A stretch of 37,432 nucleotides of DNA from a virus. The notes below the pieces were generated by a model. The model did no database searches, had not been told where the DNA came from, and worked only from the letters and a program-made list of their open reading frames with translations. Each line of letters begins with the position of its first letter. Position 1 is the first letter of the stretch. The stretch covers positions 1 to 37,432 of IMG/VR virus record IMGVR_UViG_3300022187_000091. The stretch is one strand, 5' to 3'. The position numbers and the translations under genes were made by a program. Shown piece by piece: positions 3,254 to 36,453 of this stretch.

Positions 3254-3296
3254 TATTTTCTCCTTTGTTTATATGCCATAGATAAATACTGCCTGT

Positions 3297-3443
3297 TTAA
3301 GAGTTCACGTTTAGAATCCAAACAAAGCCAATTAAGTAACCAACAGCCGTCTGTTTAAACTAGTATGTAATTCTAAAATCACCTCTGCAGTATCTACCTA
3401 TGAAGAAACACTTAGGTTTGTTGTGTTTCCTTTGCATCGTCAT
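3297..3443 (-). pseudogene. Small membrane-protein gene interrupted by an in-frame amber codon
   Basis: Reading from ATG 3443 (or 3437) the frame gives a basic stretch with FIGRYCRGDFRITY, then TAG (3360-3362), then in the same frame FKQTAVGYLIGFVWILNVNS and TAA. The part after the amber codon is a convincing membrane-like segment and the part before it reads like the basic lead-in of a small phage membrane protein. It fills an otherwise empty 196-base gap in the early operon. Either the gene is decayed, the amber codon is read through, or the resemblance to one continuous protein is accidental. No good ribosome site precedes it. Confidence 0.4.
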
Positions 3444-3449
3444 GCAATT

Positions 3450-6206: not shown

Positions 6207-6625
6207 TTATTTCTCCCATGTTTTTTTATATTATCTATATGATACTGATAATCATTATCATTATCACCCTTATGATTCGCAACGTAGAACTCAGAGAATC
6301 TTACGTTGTGGTCATCCGTCTCTAACTTTAATGTTTTACTTTTTATATCCTGCTCTATGTTCTTCGATATGTCAAGGCACATCTGCATAACTTCTCTCAA
6401 ATCAGGACACCATTCCTTGCTCTGAAAGATTGCGCTATCAGGTAAGAATAATTTATCTATCACTTGTCTGATATGTGGTACACCATTGAGTGTACGTTGC
6501 CATACCTTACCTGTAACAGATAACTTATTCCCCTGCATACCGGTACCATATCCACTCTTGAACTTATGCCCAAACAAAGTAGTCATCATAGTAAACAGAT
6601 TCTTTATATCATTATCATCAAGCAT
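6203..6625 (-). CDS. Possible helicase-loader-like protein (lambda P/DnaT pattern)
   Basis: A 140-residue protein. The pattern LFTMMTTLFGHKF, then VWQRTLNGVPHIRQVIDKLF and WCPDLREVMQMCLDI resembles the core of lambda P/DnaT-like proteins: Trp-containing helix, a helix counting Leu, then W-P-x-L-x-E-F-x-x-x-C. Such proteins bring the host DnaB helicase to the phage origin. The order initiator, three small genes, this gene, recombination genes is like the lambda O-P region. A very good AAGGAGGTG precedes the start and the upstream stop overlaps it (TAATG). The assignment is an inference from pattern and position. Confidence 0.45.
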   Translation of the reverse strand: MLDDNDIKNLFTMMTTLFGHKFKSGYGTGMQGNKLSVTGKVWQRTLNGVPHIRQVIDKLFLPDSAIFQSKEWCPDLREVMQMCLDISKNIEQDIKSKTLKLETDDHNVRFSEFYVANHKGDNDNDYQYHIDNIKKHGRNK

Positions 6626-8363: not shown

Positions 8364-8543
8364 TTATTTATCTCCCGTTTTTATTTCACTCGTGTTTAAT
8401 ACCTCAATGCTTCTTACAATTTCATCATCATGGCATCTTTGATAGATAACAGTTTTAGCATCTCTCTCAGCATAAGGTTTAGATATGCTATCAACTGTTA
8501 CAACTTTTCTATATATCACTTCCATAGTTACTGTATATTTCAT
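8364..8543 (-). CDS. Small beta-rich protein
   Basis: A 59-residue frame from ATG 8543 to TAA 8364-8366. The sequence MKYTVTMEVIYRKVVTVDSI, followed by a helix with AERDAK and a closing EIVRSIEVLNTSEI, suggests a beta-alpha-beta fold like small DpnD/PcfM-type proteins. The same GGGAGATAAATAAA ribosome site precedes it and the next gene. A hairpin (8564-8590) lies 21 bases before its leader. Function unknown. Confidence 0.65.
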   Translation of the reverse strand: MKYTVTMEVIYRKVVTVDSISKPYAERDAKTVIYQRCHDDEIVRSIEVLNTSEIKTGDK

Positions 8544-8563
8544 TTATTTATCTCCCGTTGCTA

Positions 8564-8590
8564 TTAGGTGGGCATGTCGTACCCACCTAA
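8564..8590 (-). promoter_or_regulatory. Intergenic RNA hairpin
   Basis: A perfect 9-bp inverted repeat, TTAGGTGGG and CCCACCTAA, around a 9-base loop. It lies between two early genes, is not followed by a U-tract on the minus strand, and so is not a simple terminator. Possible RNase III site, mRNA stabiliser or protein-binding element; one of a series in the early region. The rest of 8544-8637 shows nothing else. Confidence 0.6.
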
Positions 8591-8637
8591 CATAACATCT
8601 CTGTTTATTCAGCTACCCCACGTAGCATGAATTCGTT

Positions 8638-8925
8638 TTACTCTTTATCAGATTCAAGCTCATCTTTCAACTCATCAATTGCTTGTTCAATCTTATAATC
8701 AATATCACCCTCATCAACTAAGTCATAGTCACCTATACAAAAGTTATTTGTTAAGTACGTATCAACTGCATCATCAATGTCAGGTTGCTCGATATCATCT
8801 ATACTCTTTTGTAACTCTTGATTTCTAATTGTTTGCTTTGCTACTGCATCAATCAGCGCTTGGCTCATCAAGTCTACTCGATTGTATAACCCGAATGTAA
8901 GTATGTTTAATATATATTTTTTCAT
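8638..8925 (-). CDS. Acidic early protein
   Basis: 95 residues. A short hydrophobic N-terminus (KKYILNILTFGLYN) is followed by a helical stretch (MSQALIDAVAKQTIRNQELQ) and a very acidic C-terminal half (Asp/Glu-rich, ending ELKDELESDKE). The acidic tail resembles DNA-mimic or host-inhibitor proteins only in charge. It is preceded by the AACAACAACGAGGT leader shared by five early genes. Unrecognised. Confidence 0.65.
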   Translation of the reverse strand: MKKYILNILTFGLYNRVDLMSQALIDAVAKQTIRNQELQKSIDDIEQPDIDDAVDTYLTNNFCIGDYDLVDEGDIDYKIEQAIDELKDELESDKE

Positions 8926-8948
8926 TTTTTACCTCGTTGTTGTTAATC

Positions 8949-9016
8949 GGTAGCTAGACACCATGCCTAGCCACCGTGTTGTATAACATTATACAGATTT
9001 GTCTATGTTATGCAAC
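8949..9016 (-). promoter_or_regulatory. Two tandem hairpins after the antirestriction gene
   Basis: GGTAGCTAG (8949-8957) and CTAGCCACC (8967-8975) form a 9-bp stem that pairs completely only in the minus-strand RNA, where the odd pair becomes G-U. A second stem, GTTGTATAACAT (8978-8989) with ATGTTATGCAAC (9005-9016), has one mismatch and covers the stop codon of the antirestriction gene. No U-tract follows. They may process or stabilise the early mRNA. Confidence 0.55.
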
Positions 9017-9913
9017 CATTTCTTTTTTGTCTTGCAATCCGTCAAGATATTTAACCACCTTACTAGCTTGTGTAAATGCCATGTATAGTGCTTTCGGATT
9101 ATCTTTTATACCTTTAATCCAACTCTTAAGATACCTTGCGTGGTCAGGTCTTGGCTCGGAACTAATATTTAATAACCCACATAGGAAAGCGCTACTAGTT
9201 TCAGCAACTAACTCCTCATATGCGTAGTCATTATCTCCGAATCTCTTACCCATAGTTCTGTTAAGTCTATCTTTATGTCCTGTCCAGTGTGCAAGTTCAT
9301 GCAATCTTGTACTGTAATAGCACTCTAATGCACTACTATTATCTGTACCTTTATAGCTAGATAATTCAGGCATCTTGATAATGTCTAAATCAGGTGAGTA
9401 AAATGCTCTATTTCCACCCTCAATTATCTTAGCTTTTGTATTATTTATATATTGCTCAACGTTTTTCATACGTTCAGGTGTAGGAATAGTCTCAGTTTTT
9501 TCCTTGACTATTTCGTATCCGTCCACTTGTTCAGCATTGAACACTACATAATTTCTCATACACCAATATGAATCAATCAGTGGCTCACCGTTATCGTTGG
9601 TAAGTTCTTTTGATTCTTTTTCTACCCATTTACTGAATACAATATGTGTACCTTTCTCACCTTTTTTGATTTTATATCCTGCATCATTCCAGTTCTTAGC
9701 CGTTCCATGAATTTGAGATTTCCAACCGTGTTTTAGTGATTGTAAATATAGAATCAGTGTATTAAGTCCAACGTATCTAATACCTGTAAATTTATTATAT
9801 GGAATACCCGTACTTATATAGTCTTTAAGTCCACTATTCCAGTGACCTTTATCAGTTTCCATAAGTTCAACCATAGCTTTAGATATGTCTTCTATAATTT
9901 TCTTAGTTTTCAT
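9008..9913 (-). CDS. ArdC-type antirestriction protein
   Basis: 301 residues. Residues 1-130 form the ArdC N-terminal domain (DUF1738), known in plasmid ArdC to bind single-stranded DNA: DYISTGIPYNKFTGIRYVGL and YKIKKGEKGTHIVFSKW are typical. The C-terminal half is the zincin-like metallopeptidase domain with HELAHWTGH (His205, Glu206, His209, with a later Glu in EELVAE, residues 233-238, as third ligand). ArdC proteins protect incoming DNA from restriction. As the largest and one of the first genes of the early operon it would be made immediately after entry. It has the ACGAGGT leader and tandem hairpins ahead of it. Confidence 0.92.
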   Translation of the reverse strand: MKTKKIIEDISKAMVELMETDKGHWNSGLKDYISTGIPYNKFTGIRYVGLNTLILYLQSLKHGWKSQIHGTAKNWNDAGYKIKKGEKGTHIVFSKWVEKESKELTNDNGEPLIDSYWCMRNYVVFNAEQVDGYEIVKEKTETIPTPERMKNVEQYINNTKAKIIEGGNRAFYSPDLDIIKMPELSSYKGTDNSSALECYYSTRLHELAHWTGHKDRLNRTMGKRFGDNDYAYEELVAETSSAFLCGLLNISSEPRPDHARYLKSWIKGIKDNPKALYMAFTQASKVVKYLDGLQDKKEMVA

Positions 9914-9955
9914 TTTATATACCTCGTTATGTTGTTGTTTTATATACCATTATTG

Positions 9956-10017
9956 ATATATATATAACCATGCCTTGACATAGTTATATATATATGCCAC
10001 TAGCCGTAACTAGTGGC
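9956..10017 (-). promoter_or_regulatory. Tandem RNA hairpins ahead of the antirestriction gene
   Basis: Two adjoining hairpins. The first in the transcript is GCCACTAG/CTAGTGGC (9996-10017, 6-base loop). The second is a stem of 13 A/T-rich pairs ending in GTT/AAC (9956-9968 with 9983-9995), then one pair that is C-A on the plus strand but U-G in the minus RNA, then ATG/CAT around a 6-base loop. The wobble shows that the minus-strand RNA is the folding molecule. They lie between two early genes without a U-tract; an RNase III-type processing site is the simplest idea. Confidence 0.6.
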
Positions 10018-10030
10018 TATATATTTATTA

Positions 10031-10219
10031 TTAATTAAAACAAATTGTCTCGAATATCTCACGTGTTTCGTACTCGTCAAAGTACATTTTCCACGTAACA
10101 GGCGCATCATTTAAAAAATCATAATGACTTAGCCCTAGCATAAAACAATGTAAAATCCTATCAGTTTCAGAACGGATTAGCTCACGTTTTAAGTCTTCAA
10201 TTAATTGTTGTTGTTTCAT
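10031..10219 (-). CDS. Hypothetical 62-residue early protein
   Basis: An acidic helical protein (QQQLIEDLKRELIRSETDRI, then YFDEYETREIFETICF), unrecognised. It has the shared ACGAGGT leader 8 bases before ATG 10219, which is the best evidence for expression. Very early position suggests a role in host takeover or defence evasion, but nothing in the sequence proves this. Confidence 0.6.
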   Translation of the reverse strand: MKQQQLIEDLKRELIRSETDRILHCFMLGLSHYDFLNDAPVTWKMYFDEYETREIFETICFN

Positions 10220-10243
10220 TTTTTTTACCTCGTTTGTTGTTGT

Positions 10244-10438
10244 TTATTTGAATGAATATTTATAACGGATACATGGTATGTGTGCCGAATATACTGGTAC
10301 GTCATAACATGCTCTATCTTCTCTACCAAAAAACTTGATTTGATAGTTTTTGCATCTTCTTTTTCTTCTACTAGAAATAAAATCAAAAGACTTTATCCCA
10401 TAATAAAAAGCATTTTTGCTGTCTTTTATGTATCTCAT
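10244..10438 (-). CDS. Hypothetical basic early protein
   Basis: 64 residues, rich in Arg, Lys, Tyr and Phe (SSRRKRRCKNYQIKFFGRED), with three cysteines that do not form a clear zinc motif. The ACGAGGT leader lies 5 bases before ATG 10438. It looks like a small nucleic-acid-binding protein by composition only. Unrecognised. Confidence 0.6.
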   Translation of the reverse strand: MRYIKDSKNAFYYGIKSFDFISSRRKRRCKNYQIKFFGREDRACYDVPVYSAHIPCIRYKYSFK

Positions 10439-10458
10439 TTTTACCTCGTTTGTTATTG

Positions 10459-10803
10459 TTATATATATAATCCAGTTTCTATCGCTTCTCTAAAATATTT
10501 ATGTGGCATTTCTGTCGCATTTTCACGACCACCACATACAGAATTCAAGAATCTAGTTACTTGTTTGCTTGTAGTTACTGAATACTTTTCGTCAGTAAAA
10601 TACCAGTTACAATTTTCAAGTATTTGAGAATCACTCATATGACCTAAAATGTATGACTGATAAACCTCACTTTTTATGTAACCATATGCAACCGTAGTTT
10701 CATAACTTACAAGCTCAATTACATCATTTGTTTTTGAACTTGTCACAACTTTCAAATTAGATTTGTTTGTTGGTCTCGCATCATGTGTTATATATTTATA
10801 CAT
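10459..10803 (-). CDS. First gene of the early operon, unknown function
   Basis: 114 residues, unrecognised. The N-terminal half is beta-like and polar (SNLKVVTSSKTNDVIELVSY), the C-terminal half helical (TSKQVTRFLNSVCGG, then YFREAIETGLY). I place the start at ATG 10803 because the ACGAGGT leader sits 8 bases upstream; an ATG at 10845 has no such site. It is the first clear gene transcribed from the control region, so it should be the earliest protein made. Confidence 0.65.
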   Translation of the reverse strand: MYKYITHDARPTNKSNLKVVTSSKTNDVIELVSYETTVAYGYIKSEVYQSYILGHMSDSQILENCNWYFTDEKYSVTTSKQVTRFLNSVCGGRENATEMPHKYFREAIETGLYI

Positions 10804-10866
10804 TTTTTTTACCTCGTTTGTTATTGTTATACCTATATAAATCAATGACTTATATAGCTATAACAC

Positions 10867-10899
10867 GGGTATGAACTCTATAAAATAGAATCCATACCC
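10867..10899 (-). promoter_or_regulatory. 15-bp hairpin in the early operon leader
   Basis: GGGTATG at 10867-10873 pairs with CATACCC at 10893-10899, and TCTAT/ATAGA continues the stem to a 3-base loop. On the plus strand two A-C mismatches interrupt it. In minus-strand RNA both become G-U, giving an unbroken 15-bp stem. It lies in the leader of the first early gene and is not followed by U residues. Strand-specific wobble pairing is good evidence that it works as early RNA. Confidence 0.65.
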
Positions 10900-10919
10900 T
10901 TAGAGATATAAAAATATAA

Positions 10920-11033
10920 CTAACATTTTTTTTTATGGTCACCTAGTTCTATACTGTCGGCACTATTCCCATTGCACTTACCACCTGTTGACCTCATGTC
11001 GTCATTGATGCCGTAGATTTCGCTTTCTGTCAC
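10920..11033 (-). CDS. Candidate 37-residue leader ORF
   Basis: A frame from GTG 11033 to TAG 10920-10922 in the higher-GC part of the early leader. It uses C-ending codons (ATC, TAC, GGC, GAC, GCC) more than its neighbours and encodes a polar peptide with EIYGINDDMRSTGGKC. No clear ribosome site precedes the GTG and no relative is recognised. It could be a chance frame inside a structured RNA. Confidence 0.2.
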   Translation of the reverse strand: MTESEIYGINDDMRSTGGKCNGNSADSIELGDHKKKC

Positions 11034-11235
11034 TGCTTATACTACTCACTTTCGCCAGCGCTAGTCTGATTATCGAACCTCGTATTTACTATATAGAACC
11101 TTTACGAGTTTATTTCAAACTTAGGTGCAACATTACTTGCATTGTTTCTTTAAGTCAGTCCCTACACGATTGACTATGAAAAAATTTCTCTTTTCATGGT
11201 TAAGATATTATCAGGTTCTACAGCAAAAACAAGTA
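10935..11235 (-). ncRNA. Structured, higher-GC early leader or small RNA candidate
   Basis: This part of the long gene-free stretch is clearly richer in G and C than its flanks and contains several small inverted repeats: CTCGTA/TACGAG, TGCAA/TTGCA, AGTCA/TGACT, ATGAAAA/TTTTCAT (11176-11197) and GTTCTAC/GTAGAAC (11215-11239). It has no long frame on either strand. It matches no tRNA, tmRNA or RNase P form that I can recognise. It should be transcribed if the early promoter lies near 11.5 kb, so a regulatory leader or non-coding RNA is possible. Confidence 0.35.
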
Positions 11236-11433
11236 GAACATAGTAAAATAAAAAAATTAAATTTCTTGACATTCAACCAATAATAGACTAGGTAGAACAT
11301 AAGATATTACTAATATACTAAATTGCCCGTTAAACCGTCTTAAATAGCCCATAATAAGACAATAAATAATATGATGTTCTACTATCTAAACTTAAATTAA
11401 ACACGATAACAGGCAATACAGGAAGACACTAAA

Positions 11434-11448
11434 TGAGAACGATTCTCA
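11434..11448. promoter_or_regulatory. Fur-box-like palindrome 1
   Basis: TGAGAACGATTCTCA: 6 of 7 base pairs of a 7-1-7 palindrome. It lies just downstream of a TATAAT on the minus strand (11451-11456), where a start point would fall. Confidence 0.5.
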
Positions 11449-11500
11449 GGATTATACGAACATATTTAAACTCTAAATAATAACCATTCTCAAATGATAT

Positions 11501-11515
11501 TTAGAATCATTATAA
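11501..11515. promoter_or_regulatory. Fur-box-like palindrome 2
   Basis: TTAGAATCATTATAA: 6 of 7 pairs of a 7-1-7 palindrome. It covers the -10 element (11509-11514) of the presumed early promoter on the minus strand, the position from which a repressor would block transcription. Confidence 0.5.
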
Positions 11516-11537
11516 TTTTAGATTTCGCCCAATCCAA
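11509..11537 (-). promoter_or_regulatory. Candidate early promoter
   Basis: On the minus strand TTGGAT (11537-11532), a 17-base spacer and a perfect TATAAT (11514-11509). The -35 matches the consensus only partly. It points into the early operon with a leader of about 700 bases. A second TATAAT at 11456-11451 on the same strand has no good -35. Fur-like palindrome 2 overlaps the -10. Confidence 0.45.
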
Positions 11538-11593
11538 CCGTTAAAGATTCCCATAGATAATATAATAAATATACTATTATAATTTTATTAATA

Positions 11594-11609
11594 AGTTCCA
11601 CGTGAAACA
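11594..11609. promoter_or_regulatory. parS: parS-like centromere site
   Basis: AGTTCCACGTGAAACA differs only in its first base from TGTTCCACGTGAAACA, a known chromosomal parS form, and by two bases from the palindromic consensus TGTTTCACGTGAAACA. The CACGTG core and both GTT/AAC arms are intact. ParB proteins of most bacteria bind this sequence and load onto DNA around it. No ParA or ParB gene is visible in the window, so the site would act through host ParB. It is the only such site seen; other CACGTG hexamers here lack the arms. Confidence 0.7.
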
Positions 11610-11687
11610 TAGAAACATTTAAAAAGAAATTAGAAATAAACGTCTTTTCTTACACACACTCTTTAAAAATATTTTTCCCAATGCAAC

Positions 11688-11702
11688 TGGTAATCATTCC
11701 TA
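11688..11702. promoter_or_regulatory. Fur-box-like palindrome 3 (weak)
   Basis: TGGTAATCATTCCTA: 5 of 7 pairs of the 7-1-7 palindrome, sharing the AATCATT centre of the better sites. Supported mainly by lying 14 bases from site 4. Confidence 0.35.
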
Positions 11703-11716
11703 TTTACTAATGATAA

Positions 11717-11731
11717 TTAGAATCATTCTAA
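11717..11731. promoter_or_regulatory. Fur-box-like palindrome 4
   Basis: TTAGAATCATTCTAA is a perfect 7-1-7 palindrome. With its flank, GATAATTAGAATCATTCTA matches the classic 19-bp Fur consensus GATAATGATAATCATTATC at 15 of 19 positions. Confidence 0.6.
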
Positions 11732-11751
11732 GGGTTATTCTTATATGCTAA

Positions 11752-11766
11752 TGAGAATCATTCTCA
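11752..11766. promoter_or_regulatory. Fur-box-like palindrome 5
   Basis: TGAGAATCATTCTCA is a perfect 7-1-7 palindrome. With its flank, GCTAATGAGAATCATTCTC matches the classic Fur consensus at 16 of 19 positions. It lies about 120 bases upstream of the late promoter. Confidence 0.65.
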
Positions 11767-11885
11767 GCATACCCCTTAACCCCCCCTTGACGCACCGTTC
11801 TTTTAATATATCTCCCATTCATATTCTCTTGGACATATCTATTAGTAGAACATTTACTTAAAGTACCCGTATTAGAATTATGGTG

Positions 11886-11914
11886 TTGACATATTCTACA
11901 AAGTGTTAGATAAT
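11886..11914 (+). promoter_or_regulatory. Late promoter before the large terminase gene
   Basis: A perfect TTGACA (11886-11891), a 17-base spacer and GATAAT (11909-11914, 5 of 6). Transcription would begin about 11920, leaving only a few bases of leader before ATG 11929. No other promoter of this quality precedes the late operon. A GTAGAACAT site lies 33 bases upstream. Confidence 0.75.
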
Positions 11915-11928
11915 GAACTCGGATTATT

Positions 11929-13353
11929 ATGTCTACAGAACAAGAAAGAATAGAACAGATAATATCCACTCTCAAGAAGCGCCAAGAAGAAAATAGACTT
12001 AACTATTACAAGCCCTACAGATTTCAAAAAAACTTCCATGAAACAGGAGTTGAAGCTAACCAACGATTGTTGATGGCGGCGAATAGGGTAGGTAAATCAT
12101 TTGTGGGCGCTATGGAAATGGCAATACATTTGACAGGACTATATCCTGAGTGGTGGGTAGGTAGAAGATACAAAGAGCCAATTAGGGCATGGGTATGTGG
12201 TGCGTCTAATGAAACGACACGTGATATCTGCCAAAGAGAATTATTTGGGCAACCCGACAACCCAAGAGATAAAGGCAAAGGTAGTATACCCAAGCATCTC
12301 ATTGGTGAAACCACGAGGAAACCTGGAGTGCCAAATGCACATTCGTCAGTCCTTGTTAAACATAGTTCAGGTGGGTGGTCGAGAGTTGCCTTTAAAGCAT
12401 ACGAGATGGGTGCTGAAAAATTTATGGGGGAGAGTATCGACTTGGTATGGCTAGATGAAGAACCACCACAAGATATCTACTCTCAATGTGTTACACGTAC
12501 CTTAGACAGGCAGGGAATGGTCTATATGACCTTTACTCCTGAGTCAGGGGTGACTGAGGTAGTACAAAGTTTTACAACCGATTTAAAGCCAGGACAGGCA
12601 TTAGTTACAGCAGGATGGGAAGATGCTGACCACTTGACTGATAAAATGAAAGAACAGATTTTACAAGCACTCCCACCCCATGAAAGGGAGATGCGTAGTA
12701 AAGGGATACCAACGATAGGTAGTGGACTGGTATTCCCCATATTAGAAGACAATTTGACCTGTGAACCCTTTACCATTCCGTCTCACTACCCCCGTATCGC
12801 AGGTCTTGATTTTGGTTATGACCACCCTACAGCTGTTGTATGGGTAGCATGGGATAGAGATGAAGACATAGTTTACATCTATGATGTATACCGTATGTCT
12901 AAACAAACTCCTGATTATCATGCAACACATATCAATGAACGTGAGGGAAGTCATTACATACCGATAGCATTTCCTCATGATGGATACCAACATGATAAGG
13001 GAAGTGGTGTTACATTAGCTGAACATTACAGACAAGCTAATGTCAATATGCTACCGTTTCACTTTGAGAACCCACCTGCATTAGGTGAGAAGAAAGGTGG
13101 TAACAGTGTAGAAGCAGGGATAATGGATATGTTATCTCGCATGGAACAAGGAAGATTTAAAGTCTTCAACACTTGTTATGAGTGGTTTGAAGAATACAGA
13201 TTGTATCATCGTAAGGATGGTAAGATAGTAAAACTAAAGGACGACTTAATGTCTGCTACTCGTTATGCAGTTATGAGTCTAAGACATTCAACAACAGAGA
13301 CTTCTAAGTGGAATAGCAAAGGAAGACTCGGACCAAAGGTCGCAATAGTATAA
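11929..13353 (+). CDS. terL: Terminase large subunit
   Basis: 474 residues, the ATP-driven DNA packaging motor and nuclease. The ATPase part has Walker A LLMAANRVGKSF (Gly-Lys-Ser at about 55-57) and Walker B SIDLVWLDEEPP (about 169-180) with the catalytic Glu. The C-terminal RNase H-like nuclease begins with IAGLDFGYDHPTAVVWVAWD, with the first catalytic Asp near 294. It is the first gene of the late operon, close behind the promoter, and has no convincing ribosome site, so it may be translated from a nearly leaderless mRNA. Length is normal for the family. Headful packaging is likely but the type cannot be fixed from sequence alone. Confidence 0.95.
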   Translation: MSTEQERIEQIISTLKKRQEENRLNYYKPYRFQKNFHETGVEANQRLLMAANRVGKSFVGAMEMAIHLTGLYPEWWVGRRYKEPIRAWVCGASNETTRDICQRELFGQPDNPRDKGKGSIPKHLIGETTRKPGVPNAHSSVLVKHSSGGWSRVAFKAYEMGAEKFMGESIDLVWLDEEPPQDIYSQCVTRTLDRQGMVYMTFTPESGVTEVVQSFTTDLKPGQALVTAGWEDADHLTDKMKEQILQALPPHEREMRSKGIPTIGSGLVFPILEDNLTCEPFTIPSHYPRIAGLDFGYDHPTAVVWVAWDRDEDIVYIYDVYRMSKQTPDYHATHINEREGSHYIPIAFPHDGYQHDKGSGVTLAEHYRQANVNMLPFHFENPPALGEKKGGNSVEAGIMDMLSRMEQGRFKVFNTCYEWFEEYRLYHRKDGKIVKLKDDLMSATRYAVMSLRHSTTETSKWNSKGRLGPKVAIV

Positions 13354-13487
13354 TGGATAACTTAATAGCATCACCAACACAAATGGCATACAAGCTAAGA
13401 GATTTAGAAAATCAAGTAGTTGAGTTGCAAGAAGAATTAAAAAAACTAAAGGAATCAAATGGCAAAAAAACCAAGAAAGATAAGTGA
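13353..13487 (+). CDS. Small coiled-coil protein overlapping the portal start
   Basis: A 44-residue frame whose ATG shares a base with the large terminase stop (TAATG) and which runs 29 bases into the portal gene in another frame. The centre is a clear heptad pattern (LRDLENQVVELQEELKKLKE), followed by a basic tail. The coupling at both ends supports it. Possibly a small packaging or assembly factor; function unknown. Confidence 0.6.
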   Translation: MDNLIASPTQMAYKLRDLENQVVELQEELKKLKESNGKKTKKDK

Positions 13488-15892: not shown

Positions 15893-15975
15893 TGAAATGT
15901 CCTAAAACTGGTAAACAATGTAAGACCTGCAAAGGTAAATGCAAGAAGATGAAAGGAACTAAAAAGAAATACTAA
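15892..15975 (+). CDS. Tiny Cys/Lys-rich protein
   Basis: 27 residues, MKCPKTGKQC followed by KTCKGKCKKMKGTKKKY. Four cysteines (3, 10, 13, 17) among many lysines could bind one zinc. It begins and ends with TAATG overlaps with its neighbours, which is strong evidence for translation despite its size. Function unknown; strong positive charge suggests nucleic-acid binding. Confidence 0.6.
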   Translation: MKCPKTGKQCKTCKGKCKKMKGTKKKY

Positions 15976-36176: not shown

Positions 36177-36280
36177 AGAAAGAAACAAAAAAACAGAAAC
36201 AAATAAAGAAATGGATTAAGTTTCAAGAAGAACTAAATAGAACTCACAAGACTAGAGTGGGTGTTTTGAAACCTAATTAA
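36161..36280 (+). CDS. Small basic protein overlapping the preceding gene
   Basis: A 39-residue frame from ATG 36161 to TAA 36278-36280, Lys-rich (KKETKKQKQIKKWIKFQEEL), ending VGVLKPN. It overlaps the preceding gene by 16 bases and its stop lies in the stem of the next hairpin. No family is known. Its place in an otherwise empty stretch supports it moderately. Confidence 0.5.
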   Translation: MQKVVKKETKKQKQIKKWIKFQEELNRTHKTRVGVLKPN

Positions 36281-36302
36281 AGCTAGAAATAGCAGAGGTT
36301 TC
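36268..36302 (+). promoter_or_regulatory. Hairpin with GAAA tetraloop before the small membrane gene
   Basis: GAAACCT (36268-36274) pairs with AGGTTTC (36296-36302), and inside it GCTA-GAAA-TAGC forms a GNRA tetraloop stem. The outer stem covers the stop region of one frame and the AGAGG before the next start, so it could hold back translation of the following gene. Confidence 0.5.
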
Positions 36303-36307
36303 ATGCC

Positions 36308-36436
36308 ATGATAAACTTAATTAAGTTCTTACTAAGTAAGGTAAGGACGAAATATCTAAGACCTGAGATATCAGTCTTAGAGTTTATACTAATATTAGTT
36401 ATGTCATATTACATCACTAGATGGCTATATGCTTAA
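36308..36436 (+). CDS. Small single-pass membrane protein, possible lysis accessory
   Basis: 42 residues from ATG 36308, with a basic front (LSKVRTKYLRPE) and one membrane helix (SVLEFILILVMSYYITRWLY). It lies soon after the holin gene, so it may be a holin accessory, antiholin or spanin-like peptide, but there is no lipobox or periplasmic domain. Its ribosome site is partly buried in the hairpin before it. Confidence 0.5.
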   Translation: MINLIKFLLSKVRTKYLRPEISVLEFILILVMSYYITRWLYA

Positions 36437-36453
36437 ACTAATAGGAGATAACT

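Follow-up and report, generated by a model that had tools for sequence, protein, structure and literature searches.

The sizeable gaps in the upstream part of the leftward gene block of this uncultured marine phage carry tandem hairpins that fold best in minus-strand RNA, covary in relatives, recur at a defined position ahead of start codons and stay in place while the adjoining genes are exchanged. We give a probability of roughly one half to the reading that they are leader or intercistronic RNA elements setting the processing and stability of each early mRNA. The record analysed, here called the window, comprises 37,432 bases with 35% G+C. Its structural genes run rightward, starting with the terminase at 11929 and including portal, scaffold and major head protein, while a leftward block extends from 10805 to 1734. 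Because genes for an ArdC-like antirestriction protein, a Sak annealing protein and a RecE-like exonuclease sit in this block, we accept the label of early genes for it, which we infer from gene content and orientation and regard as likely. By terminase, Pelagibacter phage Baldr and vibriophages come closest among isolates, with 57-60% identity; against genomes the identity is only 43-50% (Psychrobacter, Zavarzinia, Aestuariispira and a Rhodospirillales bin).

A sequence-only reading of this DNA had described five hairpins, at 8564, 8949, 9956, 9996 and 10867, as separating early genes. All five are where it placed them, but the description as separators needs correction, given that 9956 and 9996 lie in one gap and 10867 belongs to the leader of the first gene. 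The list was also incomplete, additional hairpins lying at 10825-10865, 9941-9962, 8978-9016 and 8607-8632 (Table 1). Each of the four gaps between 8.5 and 10.9 kb contains a tandem row of two or three hairpins; an unstructured A/C-rich leader and the Shine-Dalgarno sequence come next, and the start codon lies 13, 19, 22 or 27 nt past the last hairpin. All other junctions from 10.8 to 8.5 kb are shorter than 25 nt, so that gaps and hairpins coincide over this interval. In the ArdC leader the outer arms of hairpin 9956 can alternatively pair within hairpins A and C. The block (A)ATGTTAGTTATATTTTTATATCTC, next to the first hairpin, is invariant in the window and four relatives despite diverged upstream flanks; it is possibly a -10 region or a pairing partner of the first gene's Shine-Dalgarno sequence. 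The hairpin at 8607 includes, on the minus strand, a mini reading frame (ATG CTA CGT GGG GTA GCT GAA TAA); L101 differs there by one synonymous change, and the frame could be a chance occurrence or a leader peptide.

Table 1. Positions of genes, hairpins and associated features in the window and in other contigs
Feature	Sequence	Coordinates	Strand	Remarks
Fur-box-like palindromes	window	11432-11448, 11476-11492, 11715-11731, 11750-11766; also 6241-6265		
Conserved block (A)ATGTTAGTTATATTTTTATATCTC	window	10900..10925	-	directly 5' of first hairpin; identical in window, L002, L011, L101, L102
Hairpin A, first leader	window	10867..10899	-	15 bp, loop of 3
Hairpin B, first leader	window	10825..10865	-	11-bp upper helix, 1x1 G.G mismatch, lower helix
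Leader of gene 10459-10805	window	10806..10824	-	with Shine-Dalgarno (ACGAGGTAAAAA)
First leftward gene	window	10459..10805	-	114 aa from ATG, no function assigned
62-aa gene	window	10031..10219	-	upstream of 9914-10030 gap
Hairpin A, ArdC leader	window	9996..10017	-	9 bp, UACG loop; extendable to 9988-10024
Hairpin B, ArdC leader	window	9956..9995	-	AU-rich, up to 17 bp
Hairpin C, ArdC leader	window	9941..9962	-	TATATATCAATAATGGTATATA; overlaps 3' arm of B
ArdC-like antirestriction protein	window	9008..9913	-	301 aa; Pfam ArdcN 5.7e-20, MPTase-PolyVal 4.5e-41; PHROG 7245
First hairpin, 8926-9007 gap	window	8978..9016	-	GTTG.ATAACAT...ATGTTAT.CAAC, includes TATAAT
Second hairpin, 8926-9007 gap	window	8948..8976	-	8949 hairpin; 13 bp, loop TGG
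95-aa gene	window	8638..8925	-	no function assigned
First hairpin, 8544-8637 gap	window	8607..8632	-	
Second hairpin, 8544-8637 gap	window	8562..8592	-	8564 hairpin; 13 bp, 16 with foot 8557-8596
59-aa gene	window	8364..8543	-	3' of 8564 element; unrelated genes in its place in relatives
First-leader hairpin with apical domain	L002	888-1000		
First-leader hairpin with apical domain	L011	5140-5268		
First-leader hairpin with apical domain	L101	1042-1150		
First-leader hairpin with apical domain	L102	726-830		
First-leader hairpin with apical domain	L190	695-		
First-leader hairpin with apical domain	L191	1857-		
First leader with 17-bp hairpin	L019	321-498		
First leader with 17-bp hairpin	L020	510-744		
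First leader with 17-bp hairpin	L022	4176-4425		
First leader with 17-bp hairpin	L024	7029-7278		

Predicted RNA energies are lower on the minus than on the plus strand for every one of the five hairpins: -19.1 vs -13.3 kcal/mol for 8564, -21.2 vs -12.0 for 8949, -18.6 vs -13.5 for 9956, -17.3 vs -15.9 for 9996 and -20.5 vs -13.0 for 10867. When each gap was compared with 500 dinucleotide shuffles, the minus-strand z-scores were -9.0 (10806-10930), -6.0 (9914-10030), -5.2 (8926-9007) and -4.6 (8544-8637), with none of the 500 shuffles as low as the minus-strand value in any gap; the plus-strand scores in the same order were -5.4, -3.4, -2.1 and -3.5. The late gaps 13354-13458 and 15893-15974 have sense-strand z-scores of about 0. 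Two further gaps with a folding excess were noted, in the window only, at 3254-3449 (minus-strand z -4.75) and 36177-36453 (plus-strand z -4.3). The gap survey of the contigs used a crude gene caller, and its per-contig z means are hence rough.

The close relatives (L002, L011, L101, L102, L015, L094, L097 and L111) provided alignments of 5-7 sequences per gap, all loci, here and in the comparisons below, being uncultured contigs of which some perhaps come from the same populations. Stem pairs were kept in 100% of cases and compensatory changes, whose absence would have spoken against the sequence-only reading, were found in all four gaps. The clearest instance is hairpin 9996, where both sides changed in 4 of the 9 pairs and one side in 3, with 100% pairing in five phages, for example GCCACTAG...CTAGTGGC against CCCGTTGA...TTGACGGG. 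One pair changed on both sides in each of hairpins 9956 (100% paired), 8949 (100% paired in five phages, 2 further pairs changed on one side), 10867 (basal 12 pairs 100% kept in five phages, 3 changed on one side) and 8564 (13 pairs kept in seven sequences, 2 changed on one side), and the 10 pairs of hairpin 8607-8632 were kept in 7 of 7 sequences. With alignments this small (5-7 sequences) the shuffle test is weak in three of the four gaps, where 49-81 of 500 shuffles scored as high, and 9914-10030 is the only window gap that is individually convincing.

More distant contigs (L005, L004, L188, L190, L191 and L064 among them) show the same layout at up to nine places each, namely a GC hairpin A, missing in some copies, then hairpins B and C, a leader of the type AAAATCAATAACTTATGGAG and the start codon, 25-29 nt past the last hairpin. 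Across 23 distant copies, both-side changes occurred in 11 of the 13 pairs of helix B, and helices B and C together had 97 cells with both-side changes vs 34 in shuffles; sliding one arm by 1-3 columns as a control lowered pairing from 95.5% to 16-50%. A covariance model, R1, was built from the distant copies alone with the window left out, and its sole strong match in the window is 9924-10000 on the minus strand (46.8 bits, E 1.8e-6). The ArdC leader thus genuinely belongs to the distant family. R1 also matched the corresponding position in each of the five close relatives that possess the 9914-10030 gap, and the first leader weakly (10813-10868, 20.2 bits); it gave no match to the 8564 and 8949 elements and none below E 0.1 in eleven other terminase relatives searched. 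The other window gaps have their architecture in common with the ArdC leader and may or may not be homologous to it. No Rfam family matched at gathering score, blastn did not find the element in the collection of isolate phages searched, and full-text searches, whose partial coverage of the literature makes them weak evidence of absence, returned no prior description. The arrays thus represent a covariation-supported family of structured leaders from uncultured marine phages that is absent from Rfam.

These alignments also bear on which nucleic acid is under selection. In a hairpin search that scored G-U and A-C equally, the window stems contained 9 G-U and 0 A-C pairs; the corresponding counts for structured gaps in close relatives were 39 and 1. 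In the distant arrays the raw ratio is 32:24, a fixed A.C mismatch at columns 10/42 adding to the A-C count, and within helices B and C it is 27:10. The sequence-only reading had attributed G-U pairs in minus-strand RNA to three hairpins (8949, 9956 and 10867); such pairs are present, but its count was too low, since all five show the G-U excess. The ratios of 9 to 0 and 39 to 1 therefore point to selection on the transcript, and they rule out selection for a DNA-level cruciform alone. Together with the compensatory changes in four gaps and the covarying pairs of the distant helix B, they strongly support, from sequence comparison, the earlier proposal that selection acts on the minus-strand transcript.

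The distant copies display a further pattern, in which a segment 2 of ATAG type, after hairpin B, can pair either with segment 1, 5' of B (fold I), or with segment 3, 3' of B (fold II, hairpin C). This could constitute a three-strand RNA switch, in which the fold, and with it expression of the next gene, would be set by a protein, by the speed of transcription or by translation of the gene upstream. One such three-strand copy lies at 7250-7325 of L005. In the 23 copies, segments 1 and 2 are paired in 93.9% of cells and hairpin C in 94.8%, each with 3 pairs changed on both sides, and the three segments co-vary (CTAT/ATAG/CTAT, TCAT/ATGA/TCAT, CCAT/ATGG/CCAT), segment 1 being equal to segment 3 in 22 of 23. 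The folds differ by at most about 4 kcal/mol in all 23 copies, and every copy has the mismatch at columns 10/42, which separates B from its lower extension and stops fold I from becoming continuous. The alternative pairing of the outer arms of hairpin 9956 is a counterpart in the window. However, neither fold consistently buries the Shine-Dalgarno sequence, no terminator lies 3' of the elements, the alleles partly track phage lineages, so that independent triple changes are few, and hairpin C is absent from the first leader and two window gaps. We regard a switch as rather doubtful, and the three-strand pairing may be either a conformational switch or a by-product. Somewhat more doubtful still is a modular version before each early gene, in which two identical segments would compete for the third and be held near balance by the always-unpaired mismatch. 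If true, upstream ribosome traffic or transcription speed would decide the fate of the next gene's mRNA, through a switch module placed before up to nine genes and retained during gene swaps.

The elements are also conserved relative to their surroundings. The 8564 element is 91-99% identical in most relatives, among which at least five unrelated genes are found downstream of it and at least three different ones upstream; in some relatives the 8949 and 10867 elements, too, are followed by unrelated genes, and the ArdC protein of L011 is only 54% identical while the adjoining leader hairpins are conserved. By these comparisons the elements are fixed joints around which neighbouring genes are exchanged, and they offer a concrete model for how gene-swapping operons keep each mRNA working, the punctuation shape being conserved as sequences and genes change. 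A second copy of the ArdC end with the TATAAT hairpin block, at 4871-4906 of L101, precedes another gene, lacks the following 8949-type hairpin and is likely a recombination scar. Fixed elements with exchanged flanks, the 8564 element above all, would also be seen if they were terminators or cassettes of promoter and terminator, of the kind termed PeSL (promoter early stem-loop), serving mainly gene shuffling. We hold this to be very improbable, since a U-tract is absent past every hairpin, at most one gap has a recognisable promoter, and recombination does not require strong RNA-level covariation. The lack of a U-tract had been claimed before and is borne out, the 8 nt past each stem having 0-4 scattered U and no run; intrinsic terminators are rejected on this ground. 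As for promoters, a search of the minus strand of the four gaps for sigma70-like sites gave no 9/12 match, the nearest (10942-10913) lying just upstream of the first hairpin, and TTGCAT-N16-TATAAT occurs in the 8926-9007 gap only, inside a hairpin arm.

We favour punctuation of the early mRNA because the elements have a shape without common sequence, occur several times per operon, lack the signature of a terminator, keep within a narrow range of distances to the start codon and leave most ribosome sites open. A long polycistronic early transcript would be cut at or beside the hairpins by a host endonuclease of the RNase III or RNase E type, and the remaining hairpins would protect the new RNA ends, so that every early gene would have a separate mRNA with a lifetime of its own; the cleavage, the enzyme and the stabilisation are steps that we infer. 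Such an element would act through its shape and end just 5' of the ribosome footprint, and would hence be independent of the neighbouring genes, which could therefore be swapped at the joints. The stem sequences differ freely among copies, as recognition by double-stranded shape would predict, and RNase III-like processing or stabilisation would be the most economical function. The single stems, at 9-15 bp, are short for RNase III and count against it, only the B-type stems reaching 17-20 bp. As natural shape-only parts with many variants, the elements would allow direct tests of RNase III or RNase E punctuation rules.

The order of hairpin, leader and start codon suits a pure 5' stabiliser, a ribosome standby site or an insulator equally well. 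Under such a function the hairpins would remain uncut and either block 5'-end-dependent decay or shield the ribosome site from upstream RNA, which we consider unlikely. It accords with the narrow spacing from last hairpin to start codon in window and distant arrays alike, with the A/C-rich unstructured leaders, and with the TATAAT that all relatives have 5' of hairpin 8949 and from which transcription could begin at the hairpin. That TATAAT, however, is embedded in the conserved arm of a different hairpin and has a poor -35 (TTGCAT), and the other gaps revealed no comparable promoter. Sequestration of the Shine-Dalgarno sequence by the hairpins is rejected for three of the four leaders, in which its unpaired probability is 0.72-0.98. 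In the first leader (10806-10925, minus strand) it (GAGGUAAAAAAAA) is predicted to be paired, apparently with the upstream block UUUUUAUAUCUC in a helix enclosing hairpins A and B, and this prediction hints at regulation there; both sides are nearly invariant, which makes covariation uninformative at this pairing.

In six relatives the first-leader hairpin bears an apical domain of about 50 nt that is conserved among them, ATTGTGCCRYTTATC...GGTTRTRYGGRTTT, has no Rfam match and is lost in the window. In L019, L020, L022 and L024 the first leader has a different hairpin of 17 bp, TTGCTTATGTTGT...ACAACATAGGCAA, in which G-U variants occur, and upstream of it lies a long structured RNA. The apical domain and the tandem arrangement of leader stems would suit sites at which an RNA-binding protein of phage or host attaches, such as an antitermination site resembling HK022 put or lambda nut. 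We judge this quite improbable, as the elements have no common stem or loop sequences, the window has lost the apical domain and an array of nine per operon does not resemble nut or put; a single sequence-specific protein, in particular, is less likely because the stem sequences diverge so freely.

Between the first leader and the terminase, 11196-11928 comprises about 730 nt without an obvious gene, is 72-75% identical to L019, L020 and L022 and contains repeated GTAGAACA/TGTTCTAC. Fur-box-like palindromes (AATGAGAATCATTCTCA) in the divergent non-coding region 11396-11930 number 8 matches vs 0.27 expected; they are conserved in relatives at shifted positions, and may serve as operators at which a host iron regulator or a phage repressor binds. 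At 11886-11914 a strong sigma70-like site, TTGACA-17-GATAAT, is directed at the terminase.

Among known systems, PeSLs reportedly join a sigma70-like promoter to an effective terminator. The likeness lies in stem-loops among small early genes of a gene-exchange region, with the element outliving the adjoining genes, and the difference in that the phage elements here have no U-tract and at most one promoter-like block. PeSLs were described in T4-type phages (Arbiol 2010, Comeau 2014; PMC4503421). In the cip-cel operon of Ruminiclostridium, stem-loops in six intergenic regions are cleavage signals and stabilise both new ends (PMC10311766). There, too, stem-loops occupy several gaps of one operon; cleavage and end protection are proven by end mapping in that bacterial operon, which is not homologous to the phage elements, whereas they are proposed here. 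The RNase III sites of T7 (R0.3, R1.1 and others) likewise are hairpins between early genes, on the transcript strand, with no U-tract and shortly before the next gene. A control on the public T7 record gave sense z-scores of -1.5 to -4.5 for the early gaps, the antisense being near 0 or weaker in five of six, so that gaps with known RNase III sites have a sense-over-antisense folding bias similar to that of the window. The asymmetric 4/5-nt internal loop of T7 R1.1 (PMC6121014) is absent here, the window stems being continuous or interrupted by a 1x1 mismatch or single bulge. The T7 sites have a common sequence, AAGGTC...GGCCTT, whereas the window hairpin arms differ from site to site and, unlike the T7 sites, the stems are tandem, nearly perfect and within a narrow range of distances to the downstream start codon. 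By analogy, the T7 RNase III sites are the model that the phage elements would resemble in effect.
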